From a virus, in the IMG/VR virus record IMGVR_UViG_3300009605_000124, positions 1-25,757 of that record: a stretch of DNA of 25,757 nt, one strand, 5' to 3'. Position numbers and translations under genes: made by a program. Below the pieces are notes generated by a model. It was not told the origin of the DNA and did no database searches. It was given only the letters and a program-made list of their open reading frames with translations. Within the stretch, counting starts at the first letter, position 1. Each line of letters opens with the position of its first letter. This document shows positions 7,076 to 17,790 of the stretch, one piece after another.

Positions 7076-7477
7076 ATGAGCACATTAACTTATAGAAACG
7101 GTATCGGGAATCAGGCGGCGTACCAAGTATCCGGGATTCCATTTGTAACTGGCGCAGCATTGGCCACCAACGAAGAAGACGCAATATCTTTCCCGTTCGT
7201 TACAAAGGCGGTGACCGTTATTAATACCGGGGCGGCCGCCATGAGAGTTCATTATAACGCCTCCGGTTCAGGAAATGTTGTTGGCGGACTTCACTTCGTC
7301 ACTCTGGAACCTGTTGGCGCGACGCTGCCCCTAAGTCGGTTCACGTTTAGCGTCAAATGTAAAGAGATTTTTGTGTCTTGCCCCGCTGGCACCACCACAT
7401 ATGAGATGTTCGCAGAACTAACTACAGTATCGACGAATGATATGTATATACTCACGGGGTCAGGTCTTACTGAATAG
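7076..7477 (+). CDS. Hypothetical beta-rich virion-type protein
   Basis: A 133-residue protein with predicted beta-strand alternation throughout, for example AVTVINTGAAAMRVHYNASG and HFVTLEPVGATLPLSRFTFSVK. It has few charged residues, no signal peptide and no membrane segment. GGAGTA lies upstream of ATG 7076. It is the first gene behind the box at 7053 and precedes the giant fibre gene. I recall similar small proteins (starting with a YRNGIGN...YQVSG pattern) in aquatic phages with unknown role. A minor virion, decoration or fibre-associated protein fits composition and place, but this is inference. Confidence 0.65.
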   Translation: MSTLTYRNGIGNQAAYQVSGIPFVTGAALATNEEDAISFPFVTKAVTVINTGAAAMRVHYNASGSGNVVGGLHFVTLEPVGATLPLSRFTFSVKCKEIFVSCPAGTTTYEMFAELTTVSTNDMYILTGSGLTE

Positions 7478-7574: not shown

Positions 7575-10500
7575 ATGACAAAAAAAGGTATAGCAGTATA
7601 TAAGAGCGGTAGCGCTACTGATGTAACCTTTCAGTTTTTAGATGACGGTTCTTCGGTTCAGGGCGCGGGATACACTTCCTCAGTTCACCAAGTAACTGGC
7701 GCTTTAGAAGTAACTGGCACATTAAAGTTAGACATCTCTGGCACTCTTACGAGTGGATATGTATTAACAACAGACGGCGTAGGTAATGCTTCATGGCAAG
7801 CCGGCGGTAGTTCTTCTTTCGCTGCTTTCGCCACAGAAGCAGGCAAAGTAACCAACGCTCTTACTGGTGGTACAGGAATTACTTCCTTTACTTACGATGG
7901 TTCTTCTACGGCAACTGTGGCGATAGACGAATCAATAGTAGTAACCCTAACGGGTTCACAAACACTAACGAACAAAATCATTTCTGGAACCTTTTCTGGT
8001 TCCCACGCTGGATCTTTTCTTGGAGATGGCAGCGGACTAACTAACATAACTGCATCAGAGATAGAGGCAGCAGGCGATACCAATGATATTCAATATAATT
8101 TAAACGATGATCTGACAGGAAGCAATAACTTTACTTTTGACAACAGCACATTACGCCTTACCGGCTCCGCAATTATCTCCGGATCCATTACCACTACAGG
8201 CGGCAATAAGTTTGGCAATGCGCTAGATGATGTTCATCAATTTACCGGCAGCATTCTTTTACAAGGATCAGGATCTGATCCGGCATTACTGGTATCAGAC
8301 GCAGCAGGCGACCTAAACTTCGCGGTGTATGATAGTGGATTGGTAAATATACGAGGACCATCTAGTGGAGTAATATTTACTGCTGGTATACCTGGGACCG
8401 GATATCTTCAGGTGGATGCTTCCGTTGGCGTTCGCACAATTGGCGGGGTTCAAACTTATGATATGCGCAACAATGCGGACGTGCAGTTTAGGCAAAATTT
8501 TGGTGGCGAACTCAACCCCAACGAATCGGGTCTAGGATTTCCTCTTGATCCAGGTTCCTGTGGACTATTCTCTCAAAACGCACCAGTGTTGGTTGTTAGC
8601 GGAACATCAGCCTACTGTCCTTCAGGCAGTTTCGATGTCTCCGGTTCAACAAAAGCAGGAAGTGATTTATCACATACCCACCAGGTTACTGGTTCTTTGC
8701 AACTAACGGGTGCGGTAAATTTAGATATATCTGGTTCTCTTATAGATGGATATATATTAACTACTGATACTGCGGGCAATGCTTCTTGGCGCCCTAACAC
8801 TACTTCCTCTTTCGCCACTGAAGCAGGCAAAGTATCTAATGCTCTTACAGACGGAACGGGAATAACAGATTTCACATATGACGGGAGCTCGCCAGAAACT
8901 GTATCAATTGACCAAAGCATTGTTGTAACTCTAACAGGTTCACAAACTTTAACTAATAAGATTATATCTGGGACTTTCTCTGGATCTCATAGCGGTTCGT
9001 TTACAGGATCTTTCTCTGGTGATGGATCTGGACTAACAGGACTAACAGGCACTGTCTCAGATCCCTTATCTGGCGCTTTCGGCATTGTTCCATTTACATA
9101 CGACGGTTCGTCCGTACAATCAGTTGCGATAGACGACACAATAATAGCAACATTAACAGGCACCCAAACCCTTACCAACAAAACCATAACAGGATCTTTT
9201 AATGGAGATCTGGTAGGAGATGTTACAGGAAACCTTCTGGGGACTGCATCTTTTGCAGATGAGGCAGCAAAAGTATCAAGTGAACTCACGGATGGTACAG
9301 GAATAACAGACTTTACATATGATGGCAGTTCTCCTGCTACTGTATCAATAGACGAAAGTATTGTCGTTACTCTCACCGGATCACAAACTTTAACTAACAA
9401 GATCATATCAGGGACTTTCAGCGGATCTCACACGGGATCCTTTACTGGTTCGTTCGCGGGCGACGGTTCCGGACTAACTGGCATTACGGCCGCTGTCTCC
9501 TCGCCTCTTACTGGGGCATTTGGTATCGTTCCATTTACTTATGACGGATCCTCCACTGCCGACGTTGCTGTCGATGACACCATAGTGGTAACACTAACAG
9601 GATCTCAGACTCTAACAAATAAAATAATTTCTGGAACATTTTCTGGATCGCATACTGGTTCTTTTACAGGTTCGTTTTTTGGCGATGGCAGTGGATTAAC
9701 AGGGATCAGCGCTTCTGTTGGTGCTGCCGGAAATGAAAACGAGATACAATATAACTCAGGCGGCAACCTCACAGCTAGCAGCGGCCTTGTTTATAACGGG
9801 ACAGTCCTTCTTGTAACAAGTTCTATAGAAACCACCAGTATTACTGGCGCTTTGCTGGGAGATGTTGTAGGAACTGCGTCTTTTGCAGACGAAGCAGCAA
9901 AAGTAACCAATGCTCTTGTCGATGGTACTGGCATAACTGATTTTACATATGATGGAAGTTCGCCTGCTACCGTATCAATTGACCAAAGTATTGTTGTTAC
10001 CCTAACGGGTTCTCAGACTCTAACTAATAAGATAATTTCTGGTACTTTCAGCGGATCCCACAGCGGATCTTTTACTGGTTCGTTTGCAGGCGACGGTTCG
10101 GGACTAACTGGCATAACAGGAACTGTCTCTTCGCCTCTTACTGGCGCCTTCGGAATTGTACCTTTTACTTATGATGGATCTTCTACTGCTGATGTGGCTG
10201 TCGATGAGACGGTAATAGTAACACTTACCGGTTCACAGACCCTGACTAATAAAATAATCTCGGGCACTTTTTCGGGTTCTCATACTGGATCTTTTACCGG
10301 GTCTTTCGCAGGAGATGGATCTGGTCTGACTGGTATCACGGCAGAGTGGGATGGAAGTCATGACGGCGATGCCAGCATTACTGGCACCCTATATGTAACA
10401 GAGGGAGTCGAGGCGCCATCTTTTACTGGATCATTGCTGGGCGATATAACAGGGGATGTAACAGGAAATCTGCTGGGCACATCATCGTTCGCTACAGAAG

Positions 10501-13500
10501 CAGCCAAGGTGACGAATGCCCTCACAGAAGGAACTGGTATTACCGCTTTCACCTACGATGGTTCATCCGCCGAGATAGTTTCTATAGACCAGAGCATTGT
10601 TGTTACTTTGACAGGATCTCAAACGCTTACCAACAAAATAATTTCAGGCACATTTAGTGGATCTCACACAGGTTCTTTTACAGGATCGTTTGCAGGGGAC
10701 GGATCAGGACTAACGGGGGTAACTGCTGAATGGGATGGGACGCATGTTGGCGATGCGCAGATAACTGGAACCTTGTATGTCACAGAGGGTGTGGAGGCGC
10801 CGTCATTTACTGGTTCTTTGTTGGGTGATGTCGTGGGTGATGTAACGGGGAACCTCCTGGGAACTTCTTCGTTCGCCACTGAGGCAGGTAAGGTATCAAA
10901 CGCCTTAACGGAAGGTACGGGTATAACGACTTTTACTTACGATGGATCTTCGCCAGAGACGGTATCAATTGATCAGAATATTGTTGTTACTTTAACAGGA
11001 TCGCAAACGCTTACCAACAAAATCATTTCAGGCACATTTAGCGGATCACATAGCGGATCTTTCACTGGATCATTCGCTGGTGATGGATCTGGGTTGACGG
11101 GCATAACAGCAGAATGGGACGGCAGTCATGTTGGGGATGCTAGCATTACTGGCACCCTTTATGTTACGGAAGGTGTTGAGGCGCAATCATTTACGGGATC
11201 TCTGCTAGGAGATGTGGTGGGGGATCTTACAGGGAATGTTCTTGGCACCTCCTCTTTCGCAACTGAAGCAGCAAAAGTATCTAATGCTCTTACTGCTTCT
11301 TATGGCATTCTTCCCTTCACTTACGATGGTTCGTCCACTGCCCATGTCGAGGTTGACACGTCGCTGATAGTAACCCTCACAGGCTCGCAGACACTAACCA
11401 ATAAAATAATTACTGGATCTTTTACAGGTTCGTTCACGGGATCTTTTACTGGATCTTTTGCTGGCGATGGTTCAGGATTAACAGGGGTAACTGCTGTAGA
11501 GACCGACACGCTAGATGATGTAACTACAAGAGGAAACACGACAGCGAACAGTATAACCATAGGTTCGTTTATATCTAATGGCGATAGCGTAGTTACTGGA
11601 AATTTAGATGTAACAGGAAAACTCACTGCTAACGAGTTCCACACACAGATTGTGTCATCTTCCATTATTTATGATTCAGGATCAACAAAGTTTGGCGACT
11701 CTGTAGATGATTTTCATCAATTTACTGGTTCAATTGGATTGGTAAGCGGGAATGTGGAAGCGCCATCTTTTACTGGTTCTTTCTTGGGAGACTTGGTTGG
11801 CGACGTAACAGGAAATTTGCTGGGGACTGCATCTTTTGCCATCGAAGCGGGCAAAGTATCAAATGCCCTAACAGAAGGAACCGGCATCACCGCTTTTACT
11901 TATGACGGATCTTCTGCGGAGACAGTCTCAATCGACCAATCTATCGTCGTTACACTTACAGGCTCTCAAACTCTTACTAATAAAACAATTACTGGATCTT
12001 TCAACGGTGATTTGGTTGGCGATGTAACAGGAAATCTTCTTGGCAATGTTGTCGGAGATATCACGGGAGATGTTACTGGCAATGTGCTTGGCAACTTGAC
12101 TGGCGATGTAACTGGCGATGTAACTGGCGATGTAACTGGTAATGTACTCGGAGACGTGGTTGGAAATCTTACAGGAAATGTTCTTGGAAACCTTATAGGC
12201 GATGTAACTGGCAATCTTCTTGGGACTGCTTCTTATGCTGATGAAGCAGGCAAAGTAACCAACGCTCTCACAGGCGGCCACGGTATTGAAGCATTTACTT
12301 ACGACGGTTCAGCAACAGCAGAAGTAACACTTGCTTCTGGCACTGTTGCTATATTAGACAGCACAGGGAAATACACCTACCATGCTACGATTTCATCTGC
12401 TTTGGGCGTTGCTGTTGACGGAGATACTGTACAAATAGCACCAGGAGAATATCCCGAGAGTGGATTGTCTGTGCCTGTAGGAGTAACAGTAAAAGGTATT
12501 GGCGGATGGCCAGTAACACGAGTTGGTACAACTTCTTCTTTGTCTAATATTATGACAATTGCCGATGACTCTTATATTGATAACTTATCTTTCTATGTTC
12601 CCACTGGTTCTGGACTGGCGGGGGTTGTTTATACGGGTTCAGCAGGAAAAACTGCTGGTGCCTATAACTTGACATTCTTTGGCGACGGTGCTTCTGGACT
12701 AGGAGACGGTTTGGTTGTTGAGCACAGTGGCAGCGGAAACAGCAAACTGATTGGAGCAGAGATAAGATGTGATGGCGGCGGCCTTAATAGTTTGATGAGG
12801 GTGAGAAGTGGTATTCTTGCTATCGAGTCTACTCACCTTCCAGGGGCAGCAGGAACAATAAATAATGCTGTCATTGCGGAGGGAACAGGTAGAACTCAAC
12901 TGGTTGGGTTTAACGTAGGCAACCCAAATGTCGTAAACGCCCTGTATATGAGTGGCACCTCAACAAACAATGTTTTTAATGCCAATATTTTCAACTGCCT
13001 AAACGGGCTTTATCTGGCACAAGACGGAGTGTCATTGGATCTTATTGGTGGCAAGATAGAGCCCCTCGCATATGTCGGCATAGTAGATCCAGCCATTACT
13101 CTTACATCTGCTAGCTCTTTCTATTTACAGGGCACTTTTTCACCAGCATTTACTTTCCCCCCAAGCACTTTAGATGCCGATTTTTCGGTGGTGTTTAACC
13201 AAAAGAATGCCGTTACAAGAACAGCCGCATCCCGCTTCCTAGGATCGGATTTTAAGGTAGGCTTTCCAGAGAAGGGTGCTTCTACCGTGATGGGCCAAGG
13301 TGGCCAATACGGAGATAAAGCAACCTTTTTCTCAACAGACGCAACTGCCACAACCAGCACCGATGGCGGGAACATTACTAACATAACAGTTGATGCAACA
13401 TCCCTAACAGGTTCTGTATTTACGTTTCAAACTGCTTCTGCTGGATCTACAATATTGATGTGTAGCAACAGACAAACTCCGTCTGGCATTCCTCTACAGC

Positions 13501-14489
13501 ATTACGGGATTCAACACAAGACATCTGTTGGCGACCTTAGCGGGTCGTATGCGTTTGATATTTGGAATGGAACCGCGTGGGAAGAAACTTCTGTTCAGGC
13601 AGTATCTACTAATCATACACACAGATATGCCAATAATGTGTTCCTACGAAGTAACTTAATCGAAGACATTCAATATGGAGAAAACACTACGACTAGTGGC
13701 AGCTGGGCACTGAAGACAATTAACAGCGTTGAGGGATACTGGTCAAGAATAAGAATAGTGGCAACAGGATCTACTGCTCCTGTAAGTTTAGAATATCTTA
13801 ATCTATCTCCACATATTAGTACCTTCAATGCGCTTGGCCAACGCCGATCAGCGGGGCTATCGATGTGGAGAGAGACTATTGCTGGAACAGGCAACATCTT
13901 TGGCGAGACTGGGGGAGTGGTCTCTGGAACACCAGCAGTTGGTTCCGGCGGCGGAGTTACTGGATGGAATCACAATATGAAGAACTGCCAGTTGAACCAA
14001 ACTGGAGACGCCATTTATACACAGTTCGCATTGCCTGCTGGTATATGTACTTCGCATCCTTTGCGATTACAACTAGTATATAGTTTGACGAACTCCTCCA
14101 CACAAACATCTGCTCCGACTGGTACGATGTCGGTGCTAGCACTTGAAGCTGCCGGCGTAGAAATAGCAGATCCAACCGGGGGCGAAGTGCCGATTTTACG
14201 ACCTTTTGGTTCTACGGAAACACTGACGGCGAAGGCGGCAACAGCAATTGCGGCGGATCTTGTCCCGGAGGGAGTAACACTCCCGGCAGCAAGTCTAGAC
14301 AATAAGGTGATCCAGACTAATTATGAACCATACGACATAAGTTCTTATTATGAAGATGATGTGATAGCGATTAGGTTTGAACTTACAGATGACGGCTCTC
14401 CCAACCAAGATGTTATTGTATGGGCAATTGTAATCGAAGGCGTTAAATTTTCAGATGGTAAGGTATTAGACCACGCTCATCTTGTTTAG
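7575..14489 (+). CDS. Giant modular tail-fibre-like protein (2304 residues)
   Basis: Presumed elongated fibre that contacts the host. Residues about 1-120: head region ending in GYVLTTDGVGNASWQ, a pattern common in phage fibres, repeated near 370-410. Residues about 120-1480: eleven copies of a module containing VTLTGSQTLTNKIISG and FTYDGSS, spaced mostly 222 or 384 bp apart. Residues 1478-1549: 18 uninterrupted tetrapeptides G-(D/N)-(V/L/I)-(T/V/L/I). Residues about 1599-1870: probable right-handed beta-helix (GDTVQIAPGEYPES..., like pectate-lyase-type folds). Residues about 1930-2304: C-terminal beta-rich domains. His-x-His pairs occur at 367/369, 2014/2016 and 2300/2302, the last four residues from the end; T4 gp37 and gp12 use such pairs to bind metal. 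No enzyme active site can be named with confidence. It could be a tail fibre or a head-attached fibre; location alone does not decide. Confidence 0.85.
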   Translation: MTKKGIAVYKSGSATDVTFQFLDDGSSVQGAGYTSSVHQVTGALEVTGTLKLDISGTLTSGYVLTTDGVGNASWQAGGSSSFAAFATEAGKVTNALTGGTGITSFTYDGSSTATVAIDESIVVTLTGSQTLTNKIISGTFSGSHAGSFLGDGSGLTNITASEIEAAGDTNDIQYNLNDDLTGSNNFTFDNSTLRLTGSAIISGSITTTGGNKFGNALDDVHQFTGSILLQGSGSDPALLVSDAAGDLNFAVYDSGLVNIRGPSSGVIFTAGIPGTGYLQVDASVGVRTIGGVQTYDMRNNADVQFRQNFGGELNPNESGLGFPLDPGSCGLFSQNAPVLVVSGTSAYCPSGSFDVSGSTKAGSDLSHTHQVTGSLQLTGAVNLDISGSLIDGYILTTDTAGNASWRPNTTSSFATEAGKVSNALTDGTGITDFTYDGSSPETVSIDQSIVVTLTGSQTLTNKIISGTFSGSHSGSFTGSFSGDGSGLTGLTGTVSDPLSGAFGIVPFTYDGSSVQSVAIDDTIIATLTGTQTLTNKTITGSFNGDLVGDVTGNLLGTASFADEAAKVSSELTDGTGITDFTYDGSSPATVSIDESIVVTLTGSQTLTNKIISGTFSGSHTGSFTGSFAGDGSGLTGITAAVSSPLTGAFGIVPFTYDGSSTADVAVDDTIVVTLTGSQTLTNKIISGTFSGSHTGSFTGSFFGDGSGLTGISASVGAAGNENEIQYNSGGNLTASSGLVYNGTVLLVTSSIETTSITGALLGDVVGTASFADEAAKVTNALVDGTGITDFTYDGSSPATVSIDQSIVVTLTGSQTLTNKIISGTFSGSHSGSFTGSFAGDGSGLTGITGTVSSPLTGAFGIVPFTYDGSSTADVAVDETVIVTLTGSQTLTNKIISGTFSGSHTGSFTGSFAGDGSGLTGITAEWDGSHDGDASITGTLYVTEGVEAPSFTGSLLGDITGDVTGNLLGTSSFATEAAKVTNALTEGTGITAFTYDGSSAEIVSIDQSIVVTLTGSQTLTNKIISGTFSGSHTGSFTGSFAGDGSGLTGVTAEWDGTHVGDAQITGTLYVTEGVEAPSFTGSLLGDVVGDVTGNLLGTSSFATEAGKVSNALTEGTGITTFTYDGSSPETVSIDQNIVVTLTGSQTLTNKIISGTFSGSHSGSFTGSFAGDGSGLTGITAEWDGSHVGDASITGTLYVTEGVEAQSFTGSLLGDVVGDLTGNVLGTSSFATEAAKVSNALTASYGILPFTYDGSSTAHVEVDTSLIVTLTGSQTLTNKIITGSFTGSFTGSFTGSFAGDGSGLTGVTAVETDTLDDVTTRGNTTANSITIGSFISNGDSVVTGNLDVTGKLTANEFHTQIVSSSIIYDSGSTKFGDSVDDFHQFTGSIGLVSGNVEAPSFTGSFLGDLVGDVTGNLLGTASFAIEAGKVSNALTEGTGITAFTYDGSSAETVSIDQSIVVTLTGSQTLTNKTITGSFNGDLVGDVTGNLLGNVVGDITGDVTGNVLGNLTGDVTGDVTGDVTGNVLGDVVGNLTGNVLGNLIGDVTGNLLGTASYADEAGKVTNALTGGHGIEAFTYDGSATAEVTLASGTVAILDSTGKYTYHATISSALGVAVDGDTVQIAPGEYPESGLSVPVGVTVKGIGGWPVTRVGTTSSLSNIMTIADDSYIDNLSFYVPTGSGLAGVVYTGSAGKTAGAYNLTFFGDGASGLGDGLVVEHSGSGNSKLIGAEIRCDGGGLNSLMRVRSGILAIESTHLPGAAGTINNAVIAEGTGRTQLVGFNVGNPNVVNALYMSGTSTNNVFNANIFNCLNGLYLAQDGVSLDLIGGKIEPLAYVGIVDPAITLTSASSFYLQGTFSPAFTFPPSTLDADFSVVFNQKNAVTRTAASRFLGSDFKVGFPEKGASTVMGQGGQYGDKATFFSTDATATTSTDGGNITNITVDATSLTGSVFTFQTASAGSTILMCSNRQTPSGIPLQHYGIQHKTSVGDLSGSYAFDIWNGTAWEETSVQAVSTNHTHRYANNVFLRSNLIEDIQYGENTTTSGSWALKTINSVEGYWSRIRIVATGSTAPVSLEYLNLSPHISTFNALGQRRSAGLSMWRETIAGTGNIFGETGGVVSGTPAVGSGGGVTGWNHNMKNCQLNQTGDAIYTQFALPAGICTSHPLRLQLVYSLTNSSTQTSAPTGTMSVLALEAAGVEIADPTGGEVPILRPFGSTETLTAKAATAIAADLVPEGVTLPAASLDNKVIQTNYEPYDISSYYEDDVIAIRFELTDDGSPNQDVIVWAIVIEGVKFSDGKVLDHAHLV
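7941..12014 (+). repeat. Eleven-copy module array in the giant fibre gene
   Basis: Copies of the codons for VTLTGSQTLTNK(I/T)I begin at 7941, 8925, 9147, 9366, 9588, 9996, 10218, 10602, 10986, 11370 and 11949. Spacings are 984, 222, 219, 222, 408, 222, 384, 384, 384 and 579 bp, all multiples of three. Two unit sizes dominate: 74 residues and 128 residues, the longer one adding a TAEWDGSH...LYVTEGVEAPSFTGSLLGD block. The protein is nearly invariant between copies while codons differ widely. One more diverged copy sits at 16513 in the next gene. Confidence 0.93.
12006..12221 (+). repeat. Tetrapeptide G-(D/N)-aliphatic-x tract, 18 units
   Basis: Eighteen consecutive in-frame 12-bp units, such as GGCGATGTAACT, coding for GDVT, GNLL, GNVL and variants, 72 residues with no break in phase. 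Three adjacent units (about 12102-12137) are GDVT-GDVT-GDVT. The same four-residue Gly phase is visible in shorter form (SGSF-TGSF-AGDG) in each upstream module. Confidence 0.9.
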
Positions 14490-14514: not shown

Positions 14515-17500
14515 ATGGCAGGCGGATTTGAAGCATTATATACACAAGACTTTTCTAGTACCAGTTCTATAACTGTAACGCACAACCTCGACAGAGTAAT
14601 TTGTGCGGTAAGAGTTATGATAGGATCACTAGTGAGAAACGACCTTGTTGAGAGCGTTGTTCCATCTCCGGCAGATCCCCGCAATGTGATTATTGTTACC
14701 CTGAAAGCATCCAACAGCGGCACAATACAAATAATAGACTCTGATTATATTTGGGGCACACTGCCAACTCCAGAAGGCGCAGCAGCACTAGGAAATAACT
14801 TAAGCGGATCTACTTTCAGCGGATCTTTCTCGGGTTCATTTGCTGGCGATGGTTCGGCCCTAACAGGAATCACGGGTAGCGGCGGAGGAACACCTGGAGG
14901 TGCCGATACATATATTCAATTTAATTCTGGCAGCGTTTTTTCTGGTTCGCAAAACCTTACATTTGATTATTCCGCAAATACACTATCTCTCACAGGCACA
15001 CTAGATACGAATGGCGCAGTTCTGGCATCTTCTTTTTCAGGAGATGGTTCTGCAATAACAAATGCCCAAGTTAGTGGCAGCAACCTTTTGTGGGTAGATA
15101 TCAGCGGTAGCGATACTACTGGGACAAGAGGAAGGTTTGATCTTCCTTATCTGACTATTGGAACTGCGATAAGCAGTGCTTCTGCTGAAGATGTTGTTTT
15201 GGTGCGTCCTGGCATTTATGATGAAGAAATCACAATGGCAGATGATGTTTCTGTTATTGGTACAGATCGAATGAATTGCGTGATGCAGGTATCCGCATCT
15301 TTTGCGTCAGGCCCTTATGTAGTTACAATGGCAGATAGATGTATTTTCGCGAATATGGAAATAAGGGCTACCAATCGTAATGGAATAAGATTTACTGGCA
15401 CAACTGCTGGCACCTCTACCGCAAGAAATGTTAGAATATTAGCAACAGGTGGTACTGTCGCTCCAGTCGCTATTAGCGGCACTCCAAGATTTAACTATCA
15501 ACCAACTTGTGATAATGTTGATGCTCTAGGTAGCGGATTGACGAATGCGTTTGTTGATACTTCTACTGGCGTTTCTTTCTTAAGGAATTGCTTTGGAAAC
15601 GCTTTTATAGGGTTCGGCGCCAGCGGTGGCGGCACCACCTTTATACAAGGTTGTCGTTTCGTTGGGTTTCGTGGTGTCAACAACGGTGCGGGACACACTA
15701 TGGTCGTGGATCAATCAACGCGGTGGAGCAGTTTAACTAACGCCGGATCGATTACAGCAGACGGATTTCATCTGTTATCGGCAGCAGGAAGCAATAAACA
15801 AATTCAGTTTAATGACGGACTCAGCCTTCTCGGCGGAGACGCAGATTTAACTTTCGACAACAGTACGTCTCCCAGTAATATGCAGCTAACTGGGAGTCTA
15901 CACGTATTTAACCAAATCACCGCACATACGATGAACCCATCTTTTGGACTTGGGACAGCCGGGTTCCTTTCTGCTTCCATATATCTGGGACAGGCTAGCG
16001 GATTGGCAGACATTAGCGCCGGTCCAGAAAAAAGCTTACAGTTTAATTCTAGTAGTGCTGACGGCAGCAAGTTTTCAGGATCTCAAAATCTAACATTTGA
16101 TTACGATAATAATCTTCTGGAACTCACTGGCACCTTTGCAGTGTCTGGATCCGGAGGAGGAGCAGTTGAGATAACGGGCACCCTAGGTGTTGATGGTAAT
16201 GTAATAGCAAATAGGTTTGACGGTCTTTTTGTTGGAGATCTGACAGGTGAAGTCACAGGAAATGTCCTTGGTAATGTAACAGGCGACTTGGTTGGCGATG
16301 TAACAGGTGATCTAACGGGAAGTGTGCTAGGAAATGTCCTTGGCAACATAACTGGCGATGTTGTGGGCGATTTAACAGGAAGTGTCCTTGGAACTTCATC
16401 ATTTGCTGATGAAGCAGCAAAAGTATCAAATGCTCTCTCGCAAGGTCCAGGCATAGCTGCATTTTCATTCGATGGATCTTCAGCAGCACTAGTGGGGATA
16501 GATAGTACCGTTGTGACACTAACGGGTGCTCAGACGCTTTCCAATAAAACCGTGAGTGGGTCTTTTTCTGGTTCATTTGTTGGCGATGGGAGTGGTTTAA
16601 CTGGCACTAGGGTTATTGTACAAGATAGTGGTGGAACAGTATCTGGCGGCCCACATTCAACACTCAACTTTGTTGGTGAACTTAGTGCGTCCAATAGCGG
16701 AGGCGGAGTTGCACAGATTGATGTAAATCTCCCAGAAGCCAAGTTTGCGAACTACTACAATGCTTCTCAGTATACCGGCATCACGACATCGGCAAGCACT
16801 TTGCCGTTTACAACTACCAGAATTAGTAGTTCTGCATTCACAATGGATGGTTCTGGCGAAGAAGTTACGATCAATACGGACGGATCTTATCGGGTAGATT
16901 TCGGGTGTTCCTCAGACGAGTCAAGCAACAACGATGCCACAGTGGATATGTGGATAGAACTAGACACGGGCGGGGGCTTCGCAGAAGTGGGCGGCTCCCG
17001 GGCGCGATGGTTCCATGACTCCAGCGAAGAAGAAGGGGGGAACGCCGGGTTTGCTATTTTGGAGCTTGACGCAGGCGACGTGATCCGCATCAGGGGCCAG
17101 GTTGTCGATGGCAGCGATCAGATCAACACGCTGGCGAACAGCCTTCGCCTAAGCATCCAAACAGTTGGTGCGAACGGTGCAGCAGGGGCAGCAGGTGCCC
17201 AAGGCGAACAGGGTGTCACAGGATCAGGCAGCACGATTATTGTTGAAGATGAAGGATCTAATATCCCAAACACTCCACACAGCAATTTGAATTTTGTAGG
17301 TGCTGGAGTCACAGCAGCGGACGGAGGATCAGGAGTAGCAACTATAACTATCCCTGGTGGAGGAACGGCAAACATCGCTCAGTATAGACAAACGGGAAAC
17401 CTAACTATCAATACTAGTGCGACAACGGTGGTTCTCAATGCGAACGACTTTGAAGACTCTAATTATACTCGTTCGGGTGAGAACATTACCATTGACACCG

Positions 17501-17790
17501 CAGGTATTTATCGGATAAGTTATAGCATATTCTTCGACACCACTGCGAACGCCCGTAGAACTTGTGATGGCTGGGTCGAGCAGAATACTACCGAAATAGT
17601 TCCATCCCGTGCCAGTGGTTATACTCGTAATAATACTGATGACACTGCTAGTTTATCTGCCACATTCTTAGTTCAACTTGCCGCCACTGATGTTGTGAGA
17701 CTTCGTTGCCAGTCTACTGGTACAAATGGCACCGCTCAAGGTGTGGGCAACAGAATGTGGATAACACTTGAATTCGTGAGGGCACCATAA
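14515..17790 (+). CDS. Second modular fibre protein with beta-helix and C1q/TNF-like C-terminus
   Basis: A 1091-residue probable fibre sharing modules with the 2304-residue gene. Residues about 1-85: an N-terminal domain (FSSTSSITVTHNLDR...) that may anchor it. Residues about 193-400: beta-helix-like region (DISGSDTTGTRGRFDLPYLT, then VVLVRPGIYDEEITM). Residues 574-625: 13 tetrapeptides of the GDVT type. Residues about 667-680: one VTLTGAQTLSNKTVSG module. Two similar linker blocks (PHSTLNFVG and PHSNLNFVG) each precede a jelly-roll domain: about 741-886 and 953-1091. The second has YRISYSIFFD and ends NRMWITLEFV, the pattern of C1q/TNF-like trimeric domains. A short collagen-like GAAGAAGAQGEQG lies between (about 888-900). 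ATG 14515 follows the purine-rich AGGAGAAAGGAAG. The stop overlaps the next ATG by one base. Host-binding fibre tip is the likely role. Confidence 0.85.
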   Translation: MAGGFEALYTQDFSSTSSITVTHNLDRVICAVRVMIGSLVRNDLVESVVPSPADPRNVIIVTLKASNSGTIQIIDSDYIWGTLPTPEGAAALGNNLSGSTFSGSFSGSFAGDGSALTGITGSGGGTPGGADTYIQFNSGSVFSGSQNLTFDYSANTLSLTGTLDTNGAVLASSFSGDGSAITNAQVSGSNLLWVDISGSDTTGTRGRFDLPYLTIGTAISSASAEDVVLVRPGIYDEEITMADDVSVIGTDRMNCVMQVSASFASGPYVVTMADRCIFANMEIRATNRNGIRFTGTTAGTSTARNVRILATGGTVAPVAISGTPRFNYQPTCDNVDALGSGLTNAFVDTSTGVSFLRNCFGNAFIGFGASGGGTTFIQGCRFVGFRGVNNGAGHTMVVDQSTRWSSLTNAGSITADGFHLLSAAGSNKQIQFNDGLSLLGGDADLTFDNSTSPSNMQLTGSLHVFNQITAHTMNPSFGLGTAGFLSASIYLGQASGLADISAGPEKSLQFNSSSADGSKFSGSQNLTFDYDNNLLELTGTFAVSGSGGGAVEITGTLGVDGNVIANRFDGLFVGDLTGEVTGNVLGNVTGDLVGDVTGDLTGSVLGNVLGNITGDVVGDLTGSVLGTSSFADEAAKVSNALSQGPGIAAFSFDGSSAALVGIDSTVVTLTGAQTLSNKTVSGSFSGSFVGDGSGLTGTRVIVQDSGGTVSGGPHSTLNFVGELSASNSGGGVAQIDVNLPEAKFANYYNASQYTGITTSASTLPFTTTRISSSAFTMDGSGEEVTINTDGSYRVDFGCSSDESSNNDATVDMWIELDTGGGFAEVGGSRARWFHDSSEEEGGNAGFAILELDAGDVIRIRGQVVDGSDQINTLANSLRLSIQTVGANGAAGAAGAQGEQGVTGSGSTIIVEDEGSNIPNTPHSNLNFVGAGVTAADGGSGVATITIPGGGTANIAQYRQTGNLTINTSATTVVLNANDFEDSNYTRSGENITIDTAGIYRISYSIFFDTTANARRTCDGWVEQNTTEIVPSRASGYTRNNTDDTASLSATFLVQLAATDVVRLRCQSTGTNGTAQGVGNRMWITLEFVRAP
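16234..16389 (+). repeat. Tetrapeptide G-(D/N/S)-aliphatic-x tract, 13 units
   Basis: Thirteen consecutive 12-bp units code for GDLT, GEVT, GNVL, GNVT, GDLV and similar (52 residues), in perfect four-residue phase. It is the same element as at 12006-12221 and is likewise followed by GTxSxADEAxKV, so the whole module was shared between the two fibre genes. Confidence 0.9.

Follow-up and report, generated by a model that had tools for sequence, protein, structure and literature searches.

Polyubiquitin genes evolve by birth-and-death under purifying selection, as reported by Nei, Rogozin and Piontkivska (2000, PNAS 97:10866) and cited in PMC5225520. As far as that citation conveys, they resemble the phage gene described here in that their in-frame repeats are nearly identical in protein, differ widely at silent sites and cluster between species. 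In contrast, the phage unit is a structural module, its units are presumably uncleaved, it comes in three types with variable spacers and its silent sites are fully saturated. Primate filaggrin repeats are likewise intragenic and described as evolving by birth-and-death; they vary at silent sites and in copy number and are under purifying selection (PMC5225520). Their nucleotide diversity is 0.03-0.08 and recent lineage-specific duplications are known among them, whereas none was seen in the phage arrays. A survey of protein repeats (Persi, Wolf and Koonin 2016, PMC5120217) found that fixed repeats are strongly conserved between species and that divergence of repeats within a protein is accelerated relative to orthologues. 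The phage copies depart from this, as they stay alike in protein at saturated dS and show no horizontal acceleration, at least in the core.

The window, i.e., the whole stretch of DNA analysed here, is a 25,757-base metagenomic virus fragment. It carries a structural cluster of large terminase, portal, head maturation protease, gp23-type major capsid protein and head-tail adaptor. The capsid protein matches Pfam Gp23 (E 6e-73), and the terminase, portal, head maturation protease and head-tail adaptor have PHROG matches. A gp23-type capsid, large terminase, portal and protease found together mark a T4-like (gp23) myovirus structural cluster and, judged by gene content, the source is evidently an uncultured T4-like phage. 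In the ORF table, all 11 modules lie within a single intact ORF on the plus strand (7575-14489, 2304 aa), which has orthologues in three relatives (L083, L082 and L007). A second fibre-like ORF on the same strand (14515-17790) has a BclA_C-like C-terminus (Pfam E 3.4e-7, under the gathering score), and the core search located one weaker, divergent core in it, at 16513. Both ORFs are long, repetitive and rich in Gly/Ser/Thr, and such a long modular ORF in a T4-like structural cluster resembles the repeat fibres and adhesins of T4-like and marine phages.

Searches with the ORF at 7575-14489 itself gave no significant match in Pfam and just one weak match to a function-unknown family in PHROGs (E 3e-4). 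The N-terminal array part had no match in the phage genome collection, and neither the module nor the C-terminus matched the PDB. The PDB hits of the protein encoded by a 12-bp array in the same gene (an ARID-domain protein, P230 and the T4 gp5 spike) were rejected as mere low-complexity resemblance. AlphaFold models were poor for the module (pLDDT 67, pTM 0.29) and for the C-terminus (pLDDT 34). From sequence character and neighbourhood, the ORF most likely encodes a fibre or adhesin. The two genes are flanked by the head protease gene on one side and the capsid gene on the other, so that a head-fibre role may be as possible as a tail-fibre role. Many viral contigs contain the module motif, elsewhere mostly in one or two copies per locus; in contrast, this lineage has 10-16 modules, and there is no solved homologue.

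The 22-codon cores start at 7941, 8925, 9147, 9366, 9588, 9996, 10218, 10602, 10986, 11370 and 11949, all on the plus strand, and eight of the 11 copies encode identical residues. Modules are roughly 74 to 128 codons long, fall into three sequence types and are separated by spacers of varying length. Repeat detection returned a 200-nt unit in 11 copies and, by TRF, an array with a period of 384; the repeats are far above chance. The first two cores (7941-8006 and 8925-8990) are of type A and read VTLTGSQTLTNKIISGTFSGSH. Motif searches recovered the third, of type B, as the variant ATLTGTQTLTNKTITGSFNGDL (9147-9212) and the last as VTLTGSQTLTNKTITGSFNGDL (11949-12014). Two paralogous A+B two-module blocks span 9240-9713 (cores 9366 and 9588) and 9870-10343 (cores 9996 and 10218). 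As the first-pass annotation had pointed out, a spacing of 384 bp occurs three times, at 10218-10602-10986-11370; these four cores occupy 10218-11435 (TRF period 384, 75% match). After the last core follows an array with a four-residue period, G[DN]x[TLV], and a 12-bp DNA period (12002-12228; TRF period 12, repeat family D6), in which the gene's longest exact DNA repeat (29 nt) is found. The single-copy C-terminal region (12318-14486), with 74-79% amino acid identity to three relatives, served as yardstick for between-virus divergence.

We measured silent similarity as codon memory, i.e., (observed - expected)/(1 - expected) codon identity at shared residues, which is 0 for scrambled and 1 for identical codons. 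The copies at 7941 and 8925, which had first drawn attention to the locus, encode the same 22 residues with 15 of 22 codons and 15 nucleotides different, all synonymous. This is the saturation value (expected 14.6). Over the 28 pairs of identical 22-mers, the mean codon mismatch was 14.54/22, compared with 14.63/22 expected when the codons of each copy are drawn independently from the codon usage of the gene and 14.69 (sd 0.48, P 0.66) in codon-shuffled genes. For 40-codon units, codon identity at shared residues was 0.357 with 0.356 expected. Between same-type modules, the Nei-Gojobori pS was 0.780, compared with 0.774 for random synonymous draws. Codon memory within the window ranged from 0.002 (40-codon units) to 0.047 (all segments). 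Because mismatch, codon identity and pS all equal the random synonymous expectation, the silent sites are fully saturated: the copies are as different as chance, no more and no less.

The protein, in contrast, has been kept. Pairwise comparison of same-type modules, a check proposed with the original observation, gave dN of about 0.145 at this saturated silent distance. For most orthologous repeat segments dN/dS was 0.035-0.10 (one short segment 0.17), whereas the single-copy C-terminus had 0.15-0.18. From the lower dN/dS it follows that the repeats are the more constrained part of the protein, by a factor of about 2-4. The initial proposal of duplication followed by strong purifying selection is thus borne out by pS, dN and dN/dS alike. 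Furthermore, Ser 18 of the core is encoded by both TCN and AGY codons among copies with identical protein, and copy 11370 has Thr at this position. The codon split would be consistent with long drift via Ser/Thr alternation at core position 18.

The first-pass annotation had also considered an added pressure that diversifies the DNA and so protects the array from recombinational loss of modules, beside the protein constraint. Between modules there is indeed no exact repeat of at least 21 nt besides the pair 7836/12243 (26 nt) and the 12-bp array, although exact 21-mers are too rare for a depletion test (1.4 expected under the null, 0 seen). The codon mismatch of two core pairs with a 222-bp spacing is 17.5/22, with a nominal P of 0.04; this signal fails across three genes, however, and we do not count it as support. 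Under such a pressure exact repeats should be fewer than in shuffled genes, yet they are commoner: exact 12-mer pairs numbered 255 compared with 93 in codon-shuffled genes with the 12-bp array included, and 180 compared with 78 with the array excluded. Nor does the all-pair codon mismatch, which lies at chance, point to repulsion. Near neighbours are not significantly more different, with 0.033 for near and 0.094 for distant different-type pairs (P 0.13, three genes), and exact repeats of up to 45 and 41 nt persist in relatives. We see no convincing repulsion signal, and codon diversification against recombination is disfavoured; we consider it very improbable that DNA-level selection keeps the copies apart. 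The regular spacing had moreover been taken to mark the youngest expansion of the array. A recent tandem expansion would account for the three equal spacings and for the pair 10602/10986, where, as first noted, just 6 of 22 codons (6 nt, all synonymous) differ. When shared codons were compared with chance in 22-codon blocks along the 128-codon diagonal, however, the blocks were at chance (8/22, 6/17, 7/19, 6/19, 7/21, 5/20, 0/13) save one patch. Codon memory along the whole diagonal was 0.07 over 209 codons, and 10218 and 10602 differ at 17/22 codons. With silent sites saturated along the diagonal, we rejected a recent expansion of the 384-bp array, which has next to no probability left.

The similarity between 10602 and 10986 is genuine, but it is limited to a stretch of about 22 codons and absent along the rest of the 384-bp unit. 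Most of this pair falls into a patch of about 65 bp, where 10590-10656 and 10974-11040 share 18/21 codons compared with 7.4 expected (z 4.9), more than in any of 60 codon shuffles. The simplest reading of the patch would be that a short tract was converted between two modules that are themselves old, with chance as a possible alternative. Residual silent similarity extends furthest elsewhere in the gene, between the two-module blocks at about 9240-9708 and 9870-10338, which have 92% amino acid identity over 156 codons and a codon memory of 0.22 over 144 codons and form an older two-module unit. Gene conversion as the source of the protein identity was rejected, because conversion would homogenise silent sites too and these are homogenised in isolated patches only.

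The relatives place the duplications in time. The orthologues comprise 3227 aa in L083 and 3005 aa in L082 and are partial in L007, a contig that begins inside the array. Comparison of copy number, one of the checks suggested at the outset, gave 11 modules in the window, 16 in L083 and 10 in L082. The copy tree, another of these checks, covered 34 modules of three viruses, which are intermixed, with 13 label changes compared with a minimum of 2. A single clade per genome was rejected for all three by the AU test; saturation leaves many forks weak. Because the modules of the three viruses intermix on the tree, the duplications evidently predate the split of the window virus from its sequenced relatives. 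The C-terminus points the same way. Between the viruses its amino acid identity is 74-83%, below that of the repeats, and its codon memory is 0.32-0.56, above that of the repeats; the copies within the gene should therefore be no younger than the split of the viruses. Pairwise dS cannot date the duplications because it is saturated. A recognisable orthologous module in L083 or L082 was found for about half of the window's modules; an example is the first core, whose orthologous module in L082 has a codon memory of 0.51. With about half lacking a clear orthologue in these two relatives, simple vertical descent may not hold for every module.

Module number has evidently changed since. L083 and L082 have a codon memory near 0.6 in single-copy regions, yet they carry 16 and 10 modules. 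In the three arrays, none of the well-aligned within-gene pairs exceeded a codon memory of about 0.44, and the single higher value (0.59) rests on an indel-shifted unit of 18 codons. We saw no recent duplicate in any of the three arrays; assembly artefact may contribute to this, because near-identical modules break short-read contigs and their absence may reflect assembly survivorship. The missing high-memory pairs would be expected if an old, larger array had lost different modules in different viruses, if diverged modules had come in from other viruses, or if assembly survivorship had removed them. Silent divergence of the C-terminus between the window and L082 is strongly mosaic and ranges from 0.06 to 0.89 over 720 codons (p 1e-10). 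Such a pattern is expected if relatives recombine, with rate heterogeneity as an alternative. The module adjoining the 3′ end has a dS of 0.20 to L082, compared with 0.93 for the whole C-terminus.

It is against these data that two further explanations must be weighed. The array may have grown by import or out-of-register exchange of phage modules that had already diverged, rather than by local tandem duplication. This would agree with the ceiling on within-array memory in three genomes whose members L083 and L082 differ in module count, with the C-terminal mosaic and with the low dS of the 3′-end module. The same pattern would arise, however, if a larger ancestral array had lost modules differentially; a donor with near-identical modules was not found outside close relatives, and recent duplicates may be hidden by assembly survivorship. 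We hence regard growth by import as rather unlikely. Somewhat more doubtful is a further reading, in which module number in these fibre genes changes mainly via out-of-register exchange of diverged modules between co-infecting relatives while new identical tandem copies are lost before they diverge; such a survival filter would keep the array free of recombinogenic identity without selection on codons. The second explanation, that metagenome assembly invented or scrambled the copies, draws on the origin of the window as a metagenomic virus contig. Against it, no exact repeat exceeds 29 nt, or 26 nt between modules, and assembler confusion is unlikely because exact repeats are shorter than the longer k-mers. 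In addition, the ORF is intact across 2304 codons and two independent contigs share the architecture. An assembly origin of the copies is thus scarcely credible.

Birth-and-death evolution under purifying selection in a modular phage structural gene, probably a fibre gene, in the manner of polyubiquitin, is very probably the best account of the locus. High protein identity with larger silent divergence, clustering between species and copy-number differences, as birth-and-death entails, were all found. Within-genome homogenisation that includes silent sites, the mark of concerted evolution, was seen in isolated patches only. The 11 homologous modules would have arisen by duplications that predate the virus split. 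Afterwards, purifying selection would have held the protein of each module while silent sites were substituted to saturation, until codon agreement between two copies was no higher than between codons picked at random from the gene's usage. Modules would meanwhile have been lost, gained and now and then patch-converted. We infer that the modules form the fibre shaft and that the selected trait would be the folded repeat.

Among related phages the window stands at the low end of silent memory, yet it is not alone. A set of 263 sequences, including the window, contained 74 ORFs with internal protein repeats, 54 of them with enough data. Silent memory in these 54 was below 0.1 in 17, 0.1-0.3 in 19, 0.3-0.6 in 12 and above 0.6 in six, counts that are approximate as some ORFs are overlapping copies from the same contigs. 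In a limited literature search we found no report of silent-site saturation in phage fibre repeats.

The locus thus provides a quantified phage case in which repeats are old and constrained in protein while all silent DNA similarity is gone. Silent divergence between repeats is by itself no proof of selection against recombination, and regular spacing, here 384 bp three times, together with one short similar stretch can mislead on the age of an array. Wherever repeats are said to be 'scrambled', a comparison with codon-shuffled genes offers a simple control.

Along the C-terminal region of the fibre gene (window 12318-14486), silent divergence from the related contigs L211/L082 and L083 is very uneven, and codon memory against L082 (chance-corrected codon identity at shared residues, from 0 for scrambled to 1 for identical) ranges from 0.06 to 0.89. 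This unevenness suggests recombinational mosaicism, in which the last ~130 codons would have been shared recently. A second contig, L002 (IMGVR_UViG_3300009418_000560), whose gp23 is 99.8% identical to that of the window, contributes no repeat array because it begins within the second fibre-like ORF (ORF2), leaving the array outside its reach.

After the last module of the fibre gene lies a G[DN]x[TLV] array (12002-12228) with a four-residue period, 12 bp in the DNA; arrays of this period are also found in L083 and L082. Its likeness to the T4 gp5 spike beta-helix is weak and of low complexity (E about 0.04), and a triple-stranded beta-helix is hence only a lead. ORF2 (14515-17790) carries a separate G[DN]x[TLV] array of its own, one divergent core copy at 16513 and a BclA_C-like C-terminus scoring slightly under the Pfam cut-off.

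In-frame tandem repeats of LGGD type (12/24 bp and 15 bp) occupy 2844-2973, close to the portal gene end. Immediately preceding the fibre gene, a 133-aa ORF (7076-7477) showed no family match; from its position within the head cluster, we would guess at a decoration or fibre-attachment protein.

In related phage ORFs of L146, L189 and L190, codon sharing between internal repeats falls below expectation (memory -0.15, -0.40 and -0.26, respectively, from small counts). With 74 ORFs in the comparison, this probably reflects chance; codon repulsion, if there is any, would best be sought in these repeats.
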